DNA from: Crambe crambe
Lineage: Eukaryota > Porifera > Demospongiae > Poecilosclerida > Crambeidae
NCBI GenBank assembly: GCA_963924555.1
Contig: OZ004582.1
Location: 5,394,001 to 5,458,000 of the forward strand
DNA length: 64,000 bases
Direction: 5' to 3'
A model generated the notes under the pieces. It did no database searches and was not told where the DNA came from. It worked only from the letters and a program-made list of their open reading frames with translations. Both the position numbers and the translations under genes were made by a program. Below, in pieces: positions 2,594 to 34,133 of this stretch (position 1 is its first letter; each line of letters opens with the position of its first letter).

Positions 2594-4192
2594 AGAATTG
2601 ATTTCTTTTTCTTTTTTTTCTTTTTTTAATCACTGAGTGACACTCCTTATTCAAATTGCAGACTATACTTATTCTCTTCACTCACCTGTCTCCATTGTAT
2701 GGATCCTTATTGTCCATAAGTTCCAACCTTAATGCTCTCAGTCCCTGTCATCAGTGCAATAATGATACAGAGATACCTTTTGTATCAGACCACCCTGTTA
2801 AGGTTACAATAAGAATAATTCATGGGTTAATGAGGCAGATAGTAACACAGACTATTTGAGATGCTATAGTTGAAAACTATAGTCTATTTTACAACTGAGG
2901 GCAAACCAGACGGTCCTGGCATTGAGTAAATACAGTAGTCCTAGTTTGTGTAAACAGACCACATAACGCATTTTAATGTTTTTCCATGTAGCTAGCGACT
3001 TGAGACAGAAACCTTGTGCTATGACACCACAAATACCATACCTTCATGCATCAAGCATCAATTAAAATTCCACTGAGACAAGGTTTCATCTTTGAAGTAC
3101 AGACAGATTTCATCTTTCAAGGTTAAATTCAATTAATAAAAATTATGTTATAGATATTGGTATAGCTATACTACTTTTAATAATTACATAGCTACAAAAG
3201 ATAAGATCCTGTTTCCTCAAGGATCAAGTTTCAATCATCAACATGTATATTGGTTTCTTTCTCAAGAATCCGTGACAACATTAGCTAAATAGCTAGTGTA
3301 CATCATAAATAGATGTACTGTGTTCATTAATAGAGTGAGCATCTTCACAGAAATCCAGGCAGTGTATATAGCTATTATATATCGTTGCACATTCACCTAG
3401 TCACTATTGCTATCAATGGATAGCAACAATCTCAGTTAGTTTATTAATATTTTGTCCTGCCATATATGGCTATGAAATAATAACTAGTAGTAAATAATGA
3501 GAGTCTGCTTCTTCCATCATAATTATGCTTCAAAAGAGAGGGGACCACAGAACTGGTGCCATGTGTTGCATCTTGTATTAGTAGCTAGCTATATGTATAG
3601 TTTCTCGGGCTTGGGAGGCTTTGGACAGTTTCGACTTTAAATGATGCCAGGTAGCTAGTTAGACCTTCTCATCACTGTCACACCATTAGCACTAACACAT
3701 CATAACACCAAAGAACTAGCTACCTTTAACAGTGATGGAGCCTTCGAAATTGAAGTGATCAGGTCAGGTGGTCTGGGGGTATGCCCCCCAGAAAAATTTT
3801 GATTCTTAGGGCCTCTTAGATCGAATCTGGTGCATTCTGGGGGAGATTTTTCATTTGCTGTATACAAGGCCAAAGTTCATGACTAAAAAGTGGTCAGGTA
3901 AATACCCCCATAGTGATACCTGACCTAAGACTCCACCTCTGCCTTAAGGTTGGTGAATGAGAAATTAGATAGCTAACATAATTATGGGTGGTTGCAACAA
4001 TACATTTGTTACTGTTATTGATTTTTTGAAGAAAAAAGTTAGTGAATGATCACCATAGCTTATAGCTAGAGTGTATAGCTAGCTACACAAAAAGAGAATC
4101 ACCCAATTAATGCTTTTCATAACAAGTCGGCTATACAAGAGTTTGTTCAAAGGAAGGTTGTTTTGATTTTTGAAGTTTATTATGATGTGTAT
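2594..4192. other. Intergenic spacer between two convergent genes
   Basis: AT-rich spacer between the IGHMBP2 stop and the 3' end of the receptor gene on the other strand. It holds the TIR element at 2999-3266 and no coding region I can support. Confidence 0.7.
2999..3266. mobile_element. MITE of family A (CTTGAGACAGAAACC termini)
   Basis: A 268-bp non-coding element. The left end CTTGAGACAGAAACC is the inverted copy of the right end GGTTTCTTTCTCAAG with one mismatch. The interior carries subterminal blocks (CCATACCTTCAT, GGTTTCATCTTTGAAG, CCTCAAGGATCAAGTTTCAA). The same order occurs at 24900-25190 and 32543-32811, so this is a dispersed family of small TIR elements. Confidence 0.75.
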
Positions 4193-7100
4193 TCATAGTT
4201 CCTGCATGAAAGAGGAAAAGTTAACATGCATGACCATGGCTACTGAGAGGGGGGTGAGGGGGTGGTGGGAGAGGGGACAATCATTCTTACTGGTTTCATC
4301 TGTCTGGATTGCAGAAGCTATTTTCTTCTGGTCAATTTTACGCAGGGCAGTGATCAGAGATGCCCAAGAGGCAGTCTTAAACACGTTATCAGCCCCTATG
4401 AGCCAAGCATGCACCATCTCTTCAGGTAAGTCCTTCATCTTTTTGACGTTAGAGTAATGCAATCCAAGAGCAGTACCCAATTTTATGAGGTCCTCATTTG
4501 TTAAATGTTTGAGCCTTTGACTGACTTTAAAATGATCATCTGTAGATAAAGGCTTTTGTAGTTCAGGTGCAGGTTGTTGAAGTTCATCAAGAGCTAGAAT
4601 AATATGAAAATAGCAATATTTGTTGGAACTATAATACATTAAAAATAATAAGGAGACTGAGCGGTGTATACTAACAATGACAATCATATATAAGCTTCAA
4701 GTTATTGTACGGAGCTAAGAAATTGCCTCATTAGATCAACCAATTTGTGATCATGATAGATATTGAAGCTTGCTAATTAAGATTTCAATCCTAAGGAGTT
4801 TGGTTCCAGCCTTTACTCTTCTTAGTGGATGAAGAATGTTAGCTGCTATTAACTGTTTGCACTTACAAGGGGAAGGAACATCTTGGGGTGTGGTAGGAGG
4901 TGTATCGAACGGGATAATCTGATTATTAGGATGAGAGTAGGCATTTCTTGATGATTGTACCAATTTAGTAATGGATGTGATTAGATTTTCAATATTTGGA
5001 ATAATCACAGAAGGAGTTGCTTTCTCTATATCTATAGTGGAAGGATAATTATGATCAGTACAATTTGACACTGTATTGCTGACATAATACCTGAACAGTT
5101 TGATGAATATACCATTTTTAGTTGTGTAACGAGAAAATTAATGCCCTGCATGTACATCTCCATGTCAAATGTTTCCTACATAACATGAAGAACATAATGC
5201 TTTGTATGTACGTAGCTGTAGACATTCATTTTGAATACAAAATGAAACAAAAGGAGCAAGACCAAGCATAACTACATAGTTAAAAGGCTCCATGCAGCCT
5301 AAATATAGCTAAGTGCATTTTGGCCAGTACTTTAGCTTCTTATGGCAATTCTTTTATCAACCATAATTAGATTAGACCATGCACTCGTGCACTCTTTTGG
5401 ATACCATACTACAGCTAGCTGTCATGATACATCAGTTATGTCTCGGCTCCAGCTAGCTATTAATAGAGTACTATTATGATTAGCTACAGCCTTACTCTGA
5501 ATTGTTGATGCACTTCCTTAGCTCTATTCAACAGTGTAGGAATCATTGCTTCCACTCCTGCCAAAATTTGGGCACTTGCAGAAGAAGATCTTTTATCACT
5601 GTGCCATGCAGATAATATTACCATTAGCTCTACAGTACTATACATCAAAAGGCTATTTAGCTAGCTAACTATAATAAAGTTATGTAGCTACGTATAATTT
5701 TTGTTGTTCGTGGTCTTATACAACTATGAAAATACTTAATTTCATATAGCTACATGACATTACTGTATGGAAATTGTTAAGGGTGGTCAGACATACCACC
5801 CACACATGGTTGCTATGGAAGCCAATCTCCAAAGCTACTAATGCTAAGGACTTGAAACTCCATATGACTAAGACACACTATAACACTACCACACATACAA
5901 AATATGAAGGAGAAAGGACAATTCTTACCCAAGATACGAAGCTTCATCACTCTCAAAGTATAAAAAACTATTTCTCACCAAATACTTGAGTTCAGTGGCT
6001 GATTTTTGGTCAGCCATTTCTTATTACTATCCTTTACAAATCTACGTGAGCTTTTGTTGATATCTTTTAATTTATTCCCATGGCAACATTAATAGTGACT
6101 ACATGGCTTGCTAAATGAAGTTCTAGAATAGGTATCGATAAATCCAAATGTAAATTTGTTCACCTACTCAGATAATAGCTGTATGCAAATTTTAGGCCCA
6201 GTGCTATACTTCATTCCAGAGAAACAATGCATTTCATATAGTCCCATTGAAACTCTATGTATCACACTGGAAATTTATGGTTAGTAATTACATTCTTTTG
6301 TGACCACATGGTTACTATGTCTGACCACCCTTAACATGTCCAAATCATGCATAGCTACGTAAAAGTATAAGCTACAAAAAATAATACTAACCATAAACAT
6401 TTTTCTAATGACTCCACTTCTTCAAGTAATTTTTGGGCTGTACACAAAATAGTAGCATCACTTGGAATTTGTTGATTGATTTTAATTTCCAATTCTAATA
6501 ATTTTATAGCATTCTGAAAATCAAGATAAGAAATCTTATAGCATAATAATCATAATGGTGATGATACGTACCTTGATAGGACCAGTGTTGACTCCAAATG
6601 ATGAGCTATTATTTCGGAAGAATTCTAATACAGATATAATTATATATCACAATGTTTTTTACGCTGATGTAGAGTAGCCAGTGTTATAGCTACTTTAGCT
6701 ACCTGGAAATAATATGAAGGCACCACAGTCTAGTCCTTTCACTTGCAGTTTCAGATTTTCTGTAGTAGCAGCATGCACTTTCATCTTGATACTGGAAGGA
6801 CAGGGTAGTCTCAACAGCTCTTGAACATTTTGTGGATTATAACTTTGTTGACGTTCAATCTCAGTTCGTTTTATCTAAAATTTAATGTATTAATATTATT
6901 TCATAGCTAAATATGGGGACTTAGCTATAATATAAAAACCAGCTAAATATTGCGTCATAGCTAATCATAGTTATTCACTTTGGATATTAAATTATTTTAC
7001 CAAGGCTGGATCTGTAAAGAAACAAATTTCCCAATTCTGGTTGTGCACAGGTTCTACCATGACCTCATCAGAATTGATAGTTGCACAATTGTGTTCGGCA

Positions 7101-9089
7101 TACAACTTCACTTCTCCATGCTTCTTTTTGACTGCATCATCACAGTACTGTTTGATAGTAGTAGAGTTAGCTACAACTATGTAACAATAATAGCTAATCA
7201 TTAAGCTACCTGCTGATAGTATTGACAGGATGGGACAACACATAGAAAGGCATGATTGACTGCATTATGATACAATCTTACTGAGTAGATGCTTTTTCCT
7301 GTAAGAGCAAGAATTGATACAGCTAATAAGCATTACATAGCTAATGTTAGGGGTAATAATCATATCAATAACAATAGCTAATAGCTATTTGGCATTAATT
7401 TTATCACCATGCATGCATGCACATTGCCTATAATAGTTAAATATGTACCTTCATCTGAGGCAGTGGAATCTGGAGTATTGGCATACTGCTTGGCAACTTC
7501 ACTGTTGTGGGTGTAGCGAGGGGAAGTGGGTGATTCATTGTTGGATGTTGCAGAGGTGTTAAAGTTTATCGGACTGCATGCCATGCTAAAGTTTTGGTGG
7601 ATGCTCTCATACATTGGCCCATCATAAATAGGGTTGGCTACCATGGTCCTTACTGAAGCACAACCAACATTGTGCCCATTCTTATCTGGTAAATAATAAT
7701 TTAAATGTAATAATATGCAACAACAGTCTTACTTTGGGATTTTTTTAATATGATAAATGAACCTATACAGGTAATGATAACAAGCATGAGAGTCCCTGTT
7801 AGTCCACCAAGCACTGCCACAACAACGAACAGTTGATCTATTAATTTTTATAAATTCAAAATCAGATGCTAATATTTACCTCTGCTTTTTCTGACTTTCT
7901 GTACCTCAAACTGATCTAGACCTCTTGTTTGCACTAATACTGAGTTGGATAATGATAAATAAGAATGCATGTAGCTAACTGCAATTAATTTACCTATACT
8001 TTCATTGCCATTGCTACAAGTTGTGTTCATATTATTGAGCTTCACTAAGTAATAGGAAACAAACATCATGATGTTATCATGATCCCAAGAGTTTTCTAGC
8101 TAGCAGTCCAATAGAGAAAAGAAAACCATTAATTTACCTATACTTTCATTGCCATTGCTACAAGTTGTGATCATATAGAGCTGCAGGTGTGTATCTAAGT
8201 AATAGGAAAACAAACATCATGATGTTATCATAATCCCAACCAGAATTTTCTTTAATTGTTATGATAGCTAGCAATCCAATAGAGAAAGAAAACTACCAAT
8301 CATCAATTTTTCTGATAGATTCCTTCCTTCGGGCATAGATGTCATAGCCTCGATTTGGATCCAATAGGTTAGGTTCCATTCTAATAGTTCTTCAGAGATA
8401 TCTTCCTCCACTTGTTCTTTTCCTATGTACATTGTGGGACCCTGGGAAGCAATGGTTTTCTCATCTCTGTCCATTATCAACACGGTATAATTAACAGACT
8501 GGTCCACACACTGCTCTGGCACCTGCATGCATGCATGCACTAAATTAATAATGTAGTCGATCATGCAAGTAAGTTAGCAAGGTACTTCAAATATAACTCT
8601 TGCAAACCAGTCTCCATCCAAGTCTGAATAAATTTTAGTTTGTCTAATTTGTGTAATAGCAGAAGGAAGAGCTGCATGATACAATCATAATCATCGTCAT
8701 CATAATTGTTAACTTGGTAGCATGCATAATACCTAAGCATGAAACGACAAATAAATGAGCTGTTCTTCTCTGATAACCCCCAGGAATGCTACAGACACAC
8801 ACAACAGAGGTATTATTCTCATAAACTTCTGCAGATATATTAGCTATTAAATTGGCAGAAGTGGATGAGGAAGCAGAACCAAATGGTATATTATTTATCA
8901 GCCAGTAGGTTTGACGACATGATTGAGTCCGACAATGAAATGAGGCATTTTTTCCAGGAGGTACATTTTGATTTTCTGGTCTTTCAAGAAAATGCACTAT
9001 TAAGAGTGATGGCATTTAATAATCATAGCTAGCTACATTATCAACTTACTCTGTCCCATTGCTAGAGAAAAGAGTAGTAAAATTATCAT
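4193..9089 (-). CDS. UNC5-like receptor: signal peptide, Ig-like, FN3-like, TM, UPA, death domain
   Basis: Exons in transcript order: 9089-9050 (signal peptide MIILLLFSLAMGQ), 8996-8733 (Ig-like: GKNASFHC, YWLINN, VVCVC), about 8672-8586 and 8521-8296 (FN3-like), two small repeated exons near 8190 and 8040, about 7933-7879, 7837-7733 (TM helix ending IILKKSQ), 7685-7449 (tail with NPIYDGPMY), 7298-7210 and 7147-7001 (UPA domain), 6874-6703, 6624-6572, 6514-6392, 5598-5496, 5091-4867, and 4593-4193 (death domain, LGTALGLHYSNVKKMKD). Intron phases agree at the junctions I checked. SP-Ig-TM-UPA-death recalls the netrin receptor UNC5, which in other animals has ZU5 before UPA. No ZU5 exon is visible here. 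The cytoplasmic exons from UPA onward are close copies of those at 16545-18975. The inferred role is a membrane receptor signalling through a death domain; ligand unknown. Confidence 0.8.
5781..6330. mobile_element. TIR element with TTAA target duplication, in an intron
   Basis: The left end GGGTGGTCAGACATA (5781) is matched by the inverted right end TATGTCTGACCACCC (to 6330). Both are flanked directly by TTAA. TTAA duplication is typical of piggyBac and Kolobok elements. About 550 bp, no transposase visible, so a non-autonomous copy. The matching intron of the paralogue (about 17839-18093) lacks it. Confidence 0.8.
7988..8295 (-). repeat. Tandem duplication containing a small exon of the receptor gene
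   Basis: Two adjacent copies (about 7988-8128 and 8130-8295) share the blocks CTATACTTTCATTGCCATTG, AAACAAACATCATGATGTTA and CCAATAGAGAAA. On the minus strand each carries the same short exon (TCSNGNESI followed by a GT donor). This looks like recent exon duplication in the juxtamembrane stalk. Confidence 0.75.
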
Positions 9090-9124
9090 CTTGACTTTAT
9101 TTTTAAGCACTGAGATCTACGTAT

Positions 9125-9296
9125 ATATGGGGAGTTAGCTATAATATAAAACCAGCTAGATATTGCTAATTATAGTTACTCACTTTGGATGTTAAACTTA
9201 TGATTATAAATATTTTACCAAGGCTGGATCTGTAAGGAAACAAATTTCCCAATTCTGGTTGTGCACAGGTTCTACCATGACCTCATCAGATGCTAG
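9125..9296 (-). pseudogene. Orphan UPA-exon fragment
   Basis: Nearly identical to about 18590-18750, which is an intron plus the 3' half of the second UPA exon (HNQNWEI...FTDPAL side). It sits between the receptor start and the kelch pseudogene with no neighbouring UPA exons. It ends abruptly at the codons for SDEV. This is a breakpoint relic of the segmental duplication, not a functional exon. Confidence 0.8.
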
Positions 9297-10261
9297 CTAA
9301 GTAATAAAATTTATATGCAATAATATAATATGTTCTCTATGCAAAAACAAGTAGCTATCCCAATTCATTTCATCCATCCTATTTCAGTTGCATTGAGATT
9401 CCAATATCCTCCCACCACCATCAGTTCATTGGTGGGGAGGACTGCAGCTAGAACATTGTATCGTGGGGTGGGCATCTCTGATAAGACATTCCAGGAGTTA
9501 GTGTCTCTATTATAGCGCTGAACGGCTCCTGATGGTTCATCACCACATTTTCCTCCTATAACAAGCACATGTCCTCCAAGTGTAGCTAGTGTGGAGTCTT
9601 CATTGATGTTTGCTAGTCTATTCCACACAGAGTCAACATTCCTGCTAGTGATGGATGTGGACTTGTCAGATGACTGCAGTAGACTTTCCACCGAACAAGA
9701 ATAGACAATTCCATCATCTGAAGAAATGTACAAGGATCCATTGCATAGAATCTCTCTGGAAAATATAATACTTCAGGTGTGCTACTAGCAGTCCACTACT
9801 GGAAGTTCTCTGTATTCAGTACTTCAACTTTAGAGAGAAAATTTTGATCAGTGCTTTGTCCTCCGGCCACCACTAGGTGGGTGGTGGTGGTGATAGAGGC
9901 TGGAGATGATCGCTTTGTTGGCATTGGTGGGAGCGATTCTTTCCAATTCTTACTTTTTGTAATGCTGAGGAGCATATTGGTATGTTCATTCTTAGTCCTT
10001 CCTCCAATAGTTGTTAATTCGTCATTGATGACTGCTAAACTAAAAAATGAATATGGCGAGTGTTGTAGTTTGTTCCACTTCTCTTCTGATGGTTTGTAGG
10101 AATAAATATTATTCTCACTAGAGAAGTATGCAGTGTTCAAATGGACCACAGCTGCTCCCCATTTCGATATCATATTCTTTGGTGCTGGTTTTTGTTGCCT
10201 CCATTTCATTGTCACTGAATGACTTGCTACTCTATCTGGTTGATCAGCCTACATTCAATTC

Positions 10262-11938: not shown

Positions 11939-12765
11939 TTATCTGTAGTGACATACTATAGTACTCACAGGTACATCCTGATACATGTCATCTTGCTGCT
12001 CATTGCTCTGATCCACACACTGTGTGTACCTTGCTCCTGTCTTCAGTAAAGCTAGTTGTTCACAGAGTTGGTTTGCTGATGGACGTTCTCTCTCCAAGTC
12101 TTTGATGCAATGAAGAGCAATTGGAAGAAGGGGGTGATCAGGCTCAATCAAATCAATATCTTTCTTACGACGATCAATTTCAGGAATTTGTATAAGCACA
12201 TGTTCAGTATTGCGAGTATCAGACTTGTGCGCATCTCCAGGATTGGGGAAGTTCCTGGTAATCACCTGAATGGTGAGTACTCCATGGGAGAAACAATCCA
12301 GTTTATCGGAGTAGCTAGGTGGCGTTAATAAAGCCTCTGGAGGCATGTATGCCAAGGTTCCTGGACACTGGGTAAGAGGGGTCATTTGAGGGTTCATGTC
12401 CACAAGCTTAGACATCCCAAAGTCGGTCACCTTTGCTCTGCTGCCTGCACCAATCAGCAGCACATTGTTTGTGGAGAGATCTCTGTGGATTATGCCTTTT
12501 GAGTGAAGGTAAGCTAGGGCAAGTGCTACGTCATGGCAGATGCTGACTTGAGTATGATATTGAATAGTCTCGCGTAGCCAGACCCAATTCTTTCCTTTTT
12601 CTTGGGGGCGGGGGAAAGAAAGGGTCTGGTCAACTCCCGTAGAGCGTTTTGTTCTGAGTGCACCCAAATTCCGGTGCGCGCTAATTGACCACCACTTAGT
12701 TAGCGGTAAGGCGATAACCGCCGTGGTTACTATGAATCTCATTAAAGTCTGTTTTGCATTTTATC

Positions 12766-13245
12766 ATGGCTGATCCTTCTGTTGCTCCTGATGTTCCTTC
12801 AGTTACACTGACACAGGCCTTAGAAGATACCATTTCTGCATGCATTGAAGCTGAAGCAAAAAGAAGCCATTGGGCATTAGTGTCTTGTAAAGATACTTTT
12901 GTATCTCTGCCAACCGGGTATGGTAAATCTATTATATATTATATTATATATGGAGTCCTACCTATTCTCTTCGATAAGCTGAACGGTAAGAACAATTTCC
13001 ATACACACTTATAGCTAGCTGTCCCCTTCAATTTATGTGCTACTATAGGCAGTATTGTCGTGTGCATCAGTCCTCTGATAGCTATAATGATCGATCAAAA
13101 GGCCAAGTTTTCCCCAAAAGGAATTGTTACAGACTTCATTGGTGAAGCCCAAGATGACCCTGAAACAATTAGAAATGTGTTGCAAGGGAAGCAGCTTCTG
13201 TTCGTTAACCCAGAGTCTCTCCTAAGAAATCGTAGCTCCTTGTAG
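12766..13245 (+). CDS. Truncated RecQ-like SF2 helicase inside the transposon
   Basis: Two exons, 12766 to about 12985 (donor GGTAAGAAC) and from about 13049 to 13245. The start MADPSVAPDV lies 17 bp inside the left TIR boundary. Visible motifs are Walker A/motif I PTGYGKS followed by IIYY (RecQ: PTGGGKSLCYQ), motif Ia-like CISPLIAIMIDQ, and FVNPESLL matching the segment just before the DEAH box. The frame then stops (LLRNRSSL), so motifs II-VI are missing. As encoded it could bind nucleotide at most and is not a complete helicase. It is either a decayed autonomous-element gene or a truncated passenger. Confidence 0.75.
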
Positions 13246-13371
13246 CTAGCTCCTTTGTGCAACTCTTTTGATGGTTCTTTTCCTCCAAGGTGTATTCTTT
13301 TGTCCTGAATGGTAGTCAATATTTACCTGTTAAAGTAAATAGTCAGTGTGATGCACAAGAATAACAATAAG

Positions 13372-13630
13372 ACTTACATGAACAGGAAGAGAATGTTTAT
13401 TAGTGCTCTTATTAGTGCTCTCTGATTCCACTGGTTGTTGCGATACAGTTCTTTTAGCATTAGCTTGGGATAGCCACTTTCTTTTGGCTTTTAGTTTACT
13501 ACTCAGAATGAGACATTGCATCTTTGTTGCTTCTAGCATCACAGTCTGCAGTTTCCACAAACCCATTAAGACCAACTTGTTAAACAGCACATTCAGCTCA
13601 GCCTTAAAGCTGCAAGGATTAGTTAGTTAG
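13372..13630 (-). other. Possible minus-strand exon inside the transposon
   Basis: Open frame between an acceptor-like TTGCAG near 13610 and a donor-like CATGTAAGTC near 13375. It encodes a basic, helical-looking peptide (LKAKRKWLSQANAKRTVSQQ). I do not recognise a domain. It converges on the helicase gene and could be a remnant of the element's second gene. Confidence 0.35.
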
Positions 13631-14249
13631 CTAGCTAACTGTGATGATATCATTTCTTACCTGGCTCCTGTTATTCCATGCATGCAGTTTTTCCTAAACA
13701 CTTTTGCACAAGCTAGCTAATGCAATGGACTTTAATGAGATTCATAGTAACCACGGCGGTTATCGCCTTACCGCTAACTAAGTGGTGGTCAATTAGCGCG
13801 CACCGGAATTTGGGTGCACTCAGAACAAAACGCTCTACGGGAGTTGACCAGACCCTTTCTTTCCCCCGCCCCCAAGAAAAAGGAAAGAATTGGGTCTGGC
13901 TACGCGAGACTAATATTGAAGGGGTCTAGTAGACCGGTCTAGGAACTTGGTTAGACTTTCATCCATAAGCTCCATCAGGAGAACAGGTCTGCCTGACTCG
14001 GGATCAGTGATACTTTGAAGATATTGAACAATGTTTGGGTGTTTCATGTTGCTTAGAAATTGGCACTCTTGTTCAAACCTCCTGGTGAAGCTGTGAACCC
14101 CAGGGTCATCGAACTGGAACATGGTGTCATGGAGAAGTTTGACAGCACAAGAAAGCTGACCACATTTGCCCTTGCAGACCTTGCCGTAGGAACCTACACC
14201 AAGGGTATCGTCATAGTAGATCTTAACAGAATCACAGCGATCCATTTTT

Positions 14250-15300
14250 TAGGGGGCGTAGCTGAGTCGAGGGCGTATAGGTGCCAACGTATTGGGTATG
14301 CGCAGTAAACTTAAACCGCATCACGTCATCATGCATGAAAACGGATCACGTGCGCTCGTTGTAATTATAGGGCTAAATTACTGAACCTACTACTGTACTA
14401 ATTGCTGTTGCCAAAAGGTATGTAAACTTTGTAATGTTAGTCTCGCGCGGGCCATACTCTAAGTTTTCGTATTAGGGTTTTTTCCTGTTTCTGGTCAACC
14501 GGCCGGCCGGGCGGGCCGCGCGAATAACAAAATATGTGGTATGCGCATGCGTAGTAGCCTACAGTAAAGCAGCTAGCTGACAGAATGTAGATGTGACTTA
14601 CACTTTTGTGCAACTGAATAGGTGAGGAAAATGAACAGAGAGCAGACTTTAAAATATTTTTAACAAACATGGCTTTAGTCATTGCAGTGTCCTTTGTCGA
14701 TCTAATACACAGCTTAATATCCCGTCTACTGTGCCTCTGTCATCTGTATAGAGCCTGCTCCAGATGCTGACTATTTACCTCAATGCAGACTGTACTGGTC
14801 CTCATATCATGAAAATTTTTTATAATCATTGTTTATTTAACAAGATCGTGGTTACATTACGTAAATGATTATTTTATACAAGTACAAGAGATTGTGTAGC
14901 TAGTCTCTGTAATGCTAATATTCTGCCTGCCTGCATGGGTTGCTGTGGGAAAATCCTGTCTCTAATATTGCAAGTGGCATTAAAATCCTTCTCTCAGATT
15001 AACGATATTGCAACTGTATTAGTTATTTCAGGGAAAAGAACGGTACATGGAATTTGTGCATTTGTCAATAGTGGTGTCAAAACCCAACAGTCAAAAGCTG
15101 GGAGCATTGCAATAATGCTGATGAGGGAGAACTAAGCAGATAACTTCGGGGCAAACTATATTAATGAAAGCCTTTCTTTCAAATCAATCACAATTAAATT
15201 GAGCAATGATAGGTACTCACTGATAATTATAATTAATTAATAACTTAGTTCCTTCCTCAGAGTCTCCAACTGACTCTCCTTAGTTTACTTGCCCACCACA
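14250..15300. other. Spacer with a transposon-end-like motif
   Basis: Contains TAGTCTCGCGCGGGCCA at about 14446 (same core as the TIR ends of the helicase elements) and a very GC-rich patch at about 14500-14522. No second end with a matching duplication was found. No gene recognised. Confidence 0.5.
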
Positions 15301-15304
15301 AAAG

Positions 15305-15730
15305 TGAAAGCCCCCAAGCGATGGACCCTCGGTGTAGGCTCCTATGGCAAGGTTTGCAAGGGCAAGTGTGGTCAGCTGCCTTGTGATGCCAAACTTCTCC
15401 ATGAAACCATGTTCCTGTACAATGATCCAGGGATTCATACGTAGGTTCACCAGGAGGTTTGAACCAGTTTCTCGGCAACATCAAGCACCCAAATAATTAT
15501 TGTTCAATGTCTTGGAACTATTGCAAATCCCGAGTCAGGTAGGCCTGTTCTCCTAATGGAGCTCATGCTTATGATGAAAGCCTCACCAAATTTCTAGCTG
15601 GACCCCTCCCATATTGTCAATATTTGCCATGATGTAGCTAGCCTACTTCCACTTAAATGGCATCATCTAAGATCTCTTCAGCTAGCAACAATGTCCTGCT
15701 GGTCGGTGCAGGCATCAAAGCAAAGGTGAC
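15305..15730 (+). pseudogene. Decayed kinase N-lobe/C-lobe fragment of the kinase-kelch family
   Basis: Reads in broken frames through GVGSYGKVCKGKCGQLPC, the HDT-like segment, a damaged KHPNN segment, NPESGRPVLLMEL and NNVLLVGAG, aligning with 35520-35950. There are several frame changes and in-frame stops (for example CATACGTAGG near 15440). It ends near the residues before DFG and no kelch exon follows. It has a different orientation from the neighbouring pseudogene, so it is a third, older copy. Confidence 0.85.
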
Positions 15731-33544: not shown

Positions 33545-34133
33545 TAGTATCGCGGGCCCGACCCTTTACCAACCGCGAGGGAAGGAAAGAGTCTGGTCAA
33601 ATCCAATGTTTCAATTGCCCAAAGATTTGGTGGCGGGCATGCGCAAAACGTCACGATACGTCACGGCTCTCAAACAGATTTTTTCGCGCGTGCACTTACA
33701 GAGTAGTCCTAGAGTTTAGTCATGTCATAGATATATCTATTATATGGTCATGTTAATGAGCTACTTGCTTGTATGCAGAGATAAAAGAAAAGGCTGCATG
33801 GTCCAGGGTGTGCATCAGCCAAAGAACTGCTCCAGGTACTTGCAGGAGTTGCACTGGAAAAATTTCCGACACTTTCTGACCAGAAAGCTGTTTCCAAGCC
33901 TCCTCCCACTCTCTTGAATAGCCGCCTCCAGTCTGTAATCATATTCCTGCTCAGCCATGTAGCGCTAAGAAATCCAGAGCGCAGATTTTTCCTAAATTCG
34001 TGATGTATAATAACCTCATAGTCGCGCCCCTCCTTCCGAAGATTGCTGACTGTGCACAACAAGATCGTGTATTGGATTTGACCAGACTCTTTCCTTCCCT
34101 CGCGGTTGGTAAAGGGTCTGGCCCGCGAGACTA
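33545..34133. mobile_element. Non-autonomous relative of the helicase transposon (9-bp TSD)
   Basis: 589 bp. The ends TAGTATCGCGGGCC and (reverse-complemented) TAGTCTCGCGGGCCAGACC pair over about 63 bp with a few mismatches. TGATCTGAA is duplicated on both sides (33536-33544, 34134-34142). As in the larger element, each TIR contains its own inverted pair (CCAGACCCTTT and AAAGAGTCTGG). The interior has a short unidentified minus-strand frame (RKCRKFFQCNSCKYLEQFFG) and no helicase motif. Confidence 0.88.

Follow-up and report, generated by a model that had tools for sequence, protein, structure and literature searches.

A stretch of 64,000 nucleotides from the sponge Crambe crambe (assembly GCA_963924555.1, contig OZ004582.1; hereafter the window) carries a short element with terminal inverted repeats (TIRs), which contains a piece of a RecQ-like gene and no visible transposase. 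To which group of transposons does such an element belong, and is the helicase a gene of its family or a captured host fragment? We propose that it is very likely a non-autonomous, internal-deletion derivative of an AcademH-type cut-and-paste transposon, with Academ compared by printed descriptions only. Its longer relatives pair a RecQ-type helicase gene with a gene for a protein of the Pfam family DUF6589. AcademH DNA transposons were reportedly the subject of Kojima 2020 (Mob DNA 11:15). The features of the locus are as follows.

11939..14245, minus strand: protein-kinase gene split by the element; the frame is open upon removing the element and 8 bp
12557..12564: target duplication, left copy, ATATTGAA
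12565-13912: window element, 1,348 bp, with TIRs and target duplication
12565..12749, plus strand: left TIR, 185 bp, first bases TAGTCTCGCGTAGCCAGACC
12766..12985, plus strand: predicted exon 1 of a truncated RecQ-like gene, an ORF with motif I LPTGYGKS
12986..13048, plus strand: predicted intron, 63 bp, GT...AG, inferred from sequence
13049..13245, plus strand: predicted exon 2 with an Ia-like stretch; a stop precedes motif II
13246..13727: right internal stretch, in which protein homology to the compared relatives is not recognisable
13728..13912, minus strand: right TIR, 185 bp, exact (100%) reverse complement of the left TIR
13913..13920: target duplication, right copy, ATATTGAA

The preliminary description took the element for a young TIR transposon with identical-looking 185-bp arms and a perfect 8-bp target duplication, and these points were borne out. 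The two arms lie 978 nt apart and match each other over all 185 nt, and the duplication was confirmed both by direct reading and by the interrupted gene. The Pkinase model of Pfam has 263 positions, of which one half of the kinase gene matches 5-92 (E 5.2e-09) and the other half 94-260 (E 5.9e-28). When the element and one 8-bp copy were excised in silico, a single open kinase frame was obtained, in which ...RPLQY is joined directly to HTQVSICHDV... at the junction. Removing 9 bp would shift this frame, and thus the gene provides an independent test of length, by which the 8-bp duplication is real for the window copy. Since the frame reopens in this way, the insertion looks recent. An inverted, degraded paralogue lies beside the interrupted kinase gene, at 14094-15730 of the window (326 of 442 aligned positions identical).

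The end of exon 1 was placed at the GT at 12986 from the sequence, and taking out the intron leaves one 138-aa frame. We take LPTGYGKS to be motif I and the following part to be an Ia-like stretch, in agreement with the RecQ-like motifs I and Ia described previously. As the frame stops before motif II, the product should not be a working helicase. Read through the intron, the fragment matches DEAD in Pfam (E 1e-05; 25.8 bits, cut-off 26), a genuine match, although a weak one if Pfam is taken by itself. In addition, the genome holds at least 74 matches to the fragment, itself included, with identities of 27-99%. For instance, a copy in C17 shares 99% identity with exon 1, and two of the best matches (C13 and C3) have four stops each, some of them possibly within the intron. 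For the right half of the element, the best protein match to the compared relatives had an E value of only 2.2, and two ORFs of this half scanned in Pfam matched no transposase family. The absence of a visible transposase was therefore found again in these two comparisons.

The preliminary description also counted two relatives in the window. One of them is clear:

33545..34133: MITE relative, 589 bp, ends TAGTATCGCG/TAGTCTCGCG, perfect 9-bp duplication TGATCTGAA

The others, however, are lone ends at 14438, 20671 and 34221, and a convincing partner was found for none of them in the window; for the end at 14438, one weak pairing spans 470 bp, its end mismatched at 4 positions and its duplication at 1. 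The 20-base end was found twice in the window at up to 3 mismatches and never in 100 shuffles. At up to 1 mismatch, 304 ends were found in the genome (146 forward and 158 reverse), against 0 for the reversed-pattern control. A DNA search of the genome with 196 left-end bases gave at least 42 matches, where scoring covered 40 out of 360 candidates. The first helicase exons are kept in copies of about 1.3 kb, and sister copies bearing the helicase fragment are present at L039-L045. Among the matches listed, none of DUF6589 falls inside these sister copies, and among the copies compared we did not find one that has both the 185-bp TIRs and a transposase. A 6,719-bp pair of ends in C17 (L043) was considered as an autonomous copy and rejected, its extra 5.4 kb being a nested insertion. 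This insertion, at about 3000-8370 of L043 and inside the sister copy, contains a 614-aa ORF that appears pogo/Tigger-like by eye.

Twenty-four facing pairs were chosen by eye among the listed ends of the 304. Nine of these 24 span just 62-112 bp, barely more than two joined ends:

C1:780900-780982 and C1:6886778-6886863
C3:8659852-8659963
C6:232265-232347 and C6:8126280-8126341
C8:8505974-8506046
C9:6942979-6943074
C14:843259-843332
C15:6350696-6350769

They may be mini-palindromes that arose when excision or repair failed. Facing ends were also seen 9,100 bp apart at C6:5671485-5680584, with no helicase or DUF6589 there among the matches listed.

The gene content of the family was revealed by two longer relatives:

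L049, positions 4460-7909: two-gene element, 3,450 bp, ends nearly those of the window element, 9-bp duplication ATATTGATC
L054, positions 4115-9459: two-gene element, 5,345 bp, perfect 71-bp TIRs starting TAGTCTCGCG, 9-bp duplication CTGTACTGT

Among the relatives compared, the L049 element is the two-gene relative whose ends are closest to those of the window element: the first 20 bases are the same, and about 90 bp of TIR are shared at 88-91% identity. Its helicase gene on the plus strand matches DEAD (E 2e-11) and Helicase_C (E 2.3e-08) in Pfam and shares 48% identity with the window fragment. On the minus strand, a second gene encodes N-terminal cysteines and DUF6589 (E 4.1e-23). By eye, both genes of L049 are internally deleted compared with those of L054, and its DUF6589 protein has lost the first two of three acidic motifs. 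The L054 element has a RecQ gene convergent with a DUF6589 gene, and the exons of both are fuller than in L049. Two helicase exons of L054 match TIGR00614, the RecQ family, with E values of 1.2e-22 and 3.9e-38, below the whole-protein cut-off because the exons were scanned apart. Its second helicase exon matched WRN/RecQ chains in PDB, with WRN as the best (E 2e-23), and DUF6589 was found in two exons of the opposite gene (E 3.4e-08 and 1.2e-25). Near-identical copies of L054 (96-99% over long aligned stretches) are present at L026, L027, L028, L052, L053 and L055. We also considered near-identical helicase matches of 33% identity in C11, C13, C20 and C5 as host RecQ genes and rejected this, because all four sit in copies of one TIR element, of which the C20 stretch contains both ends and the duplication in full.

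To estimate how often the two genes occur together, all helicase matches (at least 74) and DUF6589 matches (at least 110) were merged to 64 and 81 loci, respectively. Within 4 kb there were 26 convergent RecQ/DUF6589 pairs and 4 other pairings, where chance alone would give 0.29 pairs of whatever orientation. As near-identical copies were each counted singly, the 26 cannot be treated as independent. The 4 non-convergent pairings are neighbouring elements or remnants, namely two in L049 (adjacent elements), one in L055 (a nested element) and one beside the L042 sister copy. Among the remaining 38 helicase loci are the non-autonomous copies and, perhaps, host RecQ genes. For the remaining 55 DUF6589 loci, if the non-convergent pairings are set aside, the helicase matches listed include none within 4 kb. 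The preliminary description had supposed that a helicase may be part of the mobilisation machinery. By the 26 convergent pairs, a helicase does belong to the gene set of the wider family; its role in transposition is our conjecture.

What, then, could move these elements? Pfam states no function for DUF6589, and a literature search on DUF6589 found nothing. We compared by eye the helicase-partnered DUF6589 proteins of L049 (first element), L052, L059 and L060 together with a long DUF6589 ORF (P0001). Three acidic motifs were recognised: DNIDK/DNVDK/DNIDF, then GDQL/GDYL/GDAK, then EH[LI]N or its counterpart HEMLIN. These motifs fit a DDE transposase, a fit rather than a proof, and the DUF6589 protein is probably such an enzyme. 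A transposase function may thus be suggested for Pfam DUF6589. The predicted structures were too poor to add to this: the D-to-E part of the L060 protein (with 12 fragment rows) reached a mean pLDDT of 44.7, too poor for recognising an RNase H fold, and the C-terminal part of the long L055 DUF6589 ORF (single sequence) reached 33.4. Scans of viral contigs gave 145 pattern matches for DUF6589 relatives, 0 of them confirmed, and 1 unconfirmed match for the L055 C-terminus.

The long ORF belongs to a DUF6589-only element:

C5:6045252-6052251 (L061 53-2801 and L055 1-4252): 7,000 bp, ends TAGTCTGGC

This element has inserted into the left TIR of an L054-type element, where a 9-bp duplication GGTGTCACG flanks it. 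Its one ORF of 1,861 aa matches DUF6589 with an E value of 5.8e-16 in the part that lies in L055, and the C-terminus of the ORF presumably resembles XPG/FEN nucleases, judging by motifs only. XPG_I (Pfam) was undetected in the scanned part of the long ORF and at its genome position, and against PDB sequences the best match of the ORF was msl-2, with an E value of just 3.4.

Fourteen of the elements compared have both ends. The duplication is 9 bp in 12 of the 14 and 8 bp in the window copy, and L056 has none. The script behind this count accepted 8-10 bp with at most 1 mismatch (0 at 8 bp), and other lengths were invisible to it; it found 13 delimited elements, of which the window copy has 8 bp and the 12 others have 9. 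L044, L045, L048, L050 and L058, which miss one or both outer ends, were outside the count. The fourteenth element, L056 2982-3582, lacks a direct duplication, and its flanks ACCTGTAGTTCCAAC and GTTGGAACTACAGGT are reverse complements of each other, so that the palindrome continues past the element ends. The 8 bp of the window copy and the missing direct duplication of L056 count against the AcademH reading, and so do the limited likeness of L049 to the window element and the failure to find, among the copies compared, 185-bp TIRs together with a transposase.

Putting these results together, the following course may be proposed. In relatives of autonomous type two genes converge: one, read from one end, encodes a RecQ-type helicase, and the other, read from the opposite end, encodes the DUF6589 protein, which also has cysteine motifs near its N-terminus and the three conserved acidic motifs and is probably the DDE transposase. 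The window copy would have retained both TIRs and the first two helicase exons and lost motif II onwards together with the transposase. The proteins of a relative may recognise the shared TAGTCTCGCG(TAGCCAGACC) ends and mobilise the window copy in trans. Joining to staggered target cuts would then leave a duplication, of 8 bp for the window copy and of 9 bp for most of its sisters, and the helicase may assist transposition by processing or unwinding ends or gaps.

Other origins have to be weighed against this AcademH-type derivation. Mutator, P and hAT elements usually make 8-9-bp duplications, and Pack-type elements often contain captured pieces of genes; hence the window element could be one of these with a captured host RecQ fragment. 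However, no Pfam match to these transposases was found in the ORFs scanned (L049, L054, L055 and L059). Furthermore, the helicase is paired with DUF6589 at the 26 convergent loci and is therefore a gene of the family, not a one-off capture, which makes this origin very unlikely. A Kolobok transposon with a RecQ helicase, that is KolobokH, we regard as extremely unlikely. Kolobok targets TTAA, whereas the duplicated targets here vary in sequence over 8-9 bp and are not TTAA. It is true that a RecQ helicase in a DDE transposon is a shared character, since the excerpted text of PMC9587614 gives one for KolobokH and one, on the complementary strand, for Kolobok-1_CCri. However, KolobokH is placed there in fungi only, and the EDWH that is conserved in our family (by eye) misfits the C/DxxH motif of Kolobok in the same excerpt.

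Whether the RecQ/DUF6589 group should stand as a superfamily of its own, apart from Academ and with the RecQ helicase as core partner of a DUF6589 transposase, is another question. The silence of Pfam on DUF6589 would suit it, Academ being known here by description only, and so would the C5 element, which has no seen RecQ gene and also makes 9 bp, unlike the 3-4 bp of AcademX in the excerpt of PMC10045372. Nevertheless, RecQ, 9-bp duplications and TIRs together are the profile that the consulted parts of PMC3627910 and PMC10045372 print for Academ and AcademH, and we consider a separate superfamily quite unlikely. It is also rather unlikely that the RecQ/DUF6589 elements (TAGTCT ends, 8-9 bp) form a lineage apart from Academ that includes the long single-ORF, RecQ-less DUF6589 elements (9 bp), in which the DUF6589 protein, not the helicase or nuclease, would set the stagger. 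With AcademH-type ancestry, an apparently transposase-less helicase element becomes a deletion derivative of a known group. Moreover, one genome with several RecQ-bearing transposon families and a recurring convergent gene pair offers a setting to test the role of the helicase in transposition.

Internal-deletion derivatives and MITEs generally keep their ends, lose genes and move in trans. The window element resembles them in these respects; the difference is that the copies of its size class still hold helicase exons. As regards named groups, a RecQ helicase in Academ was reported by Kapitonov et al. (PMC3627910, in the part consulted). The excerpt of PMC10045372 gives AcademH 9- or 10-bp and AcademX 3- or 4-bp duplications and relates them to helicase and nuclease. 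AcademX, with a nuclease and 3- or 4-bp duplications, differs from the relatives here, which are helicase-bearing with 8-9 bp. AcademH agrees with them in the TIRs (185 bp in the window element and 71 bp in L054) and in the helicase gene (TIGR00614 in L054, DEAD and Helicase_C in L049, a fragment only in the window copy). For duplication length the picture is mixed: against the 9 or 10 bp of AcademH, 12 of the 14 elements with both ends have 9 bp, the window copy has 8 and L056 has none. The window copy differs from AcademH in its 8 bp and in lacking a transposase, with Academ again compared by description. The DUF6589 protein is presumably the Academ transposase. The undescribed group first envisaged is thus unsupported, RecQ in Academ and the 9-10 bp of AcademH being already in print in these excerpts, and at the level of anatomy the family matches a named helicase-bearing group, AcademH. 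The window element is very probably a new, ordinary non-autonomous member of this known helicase-bearing transposon group.
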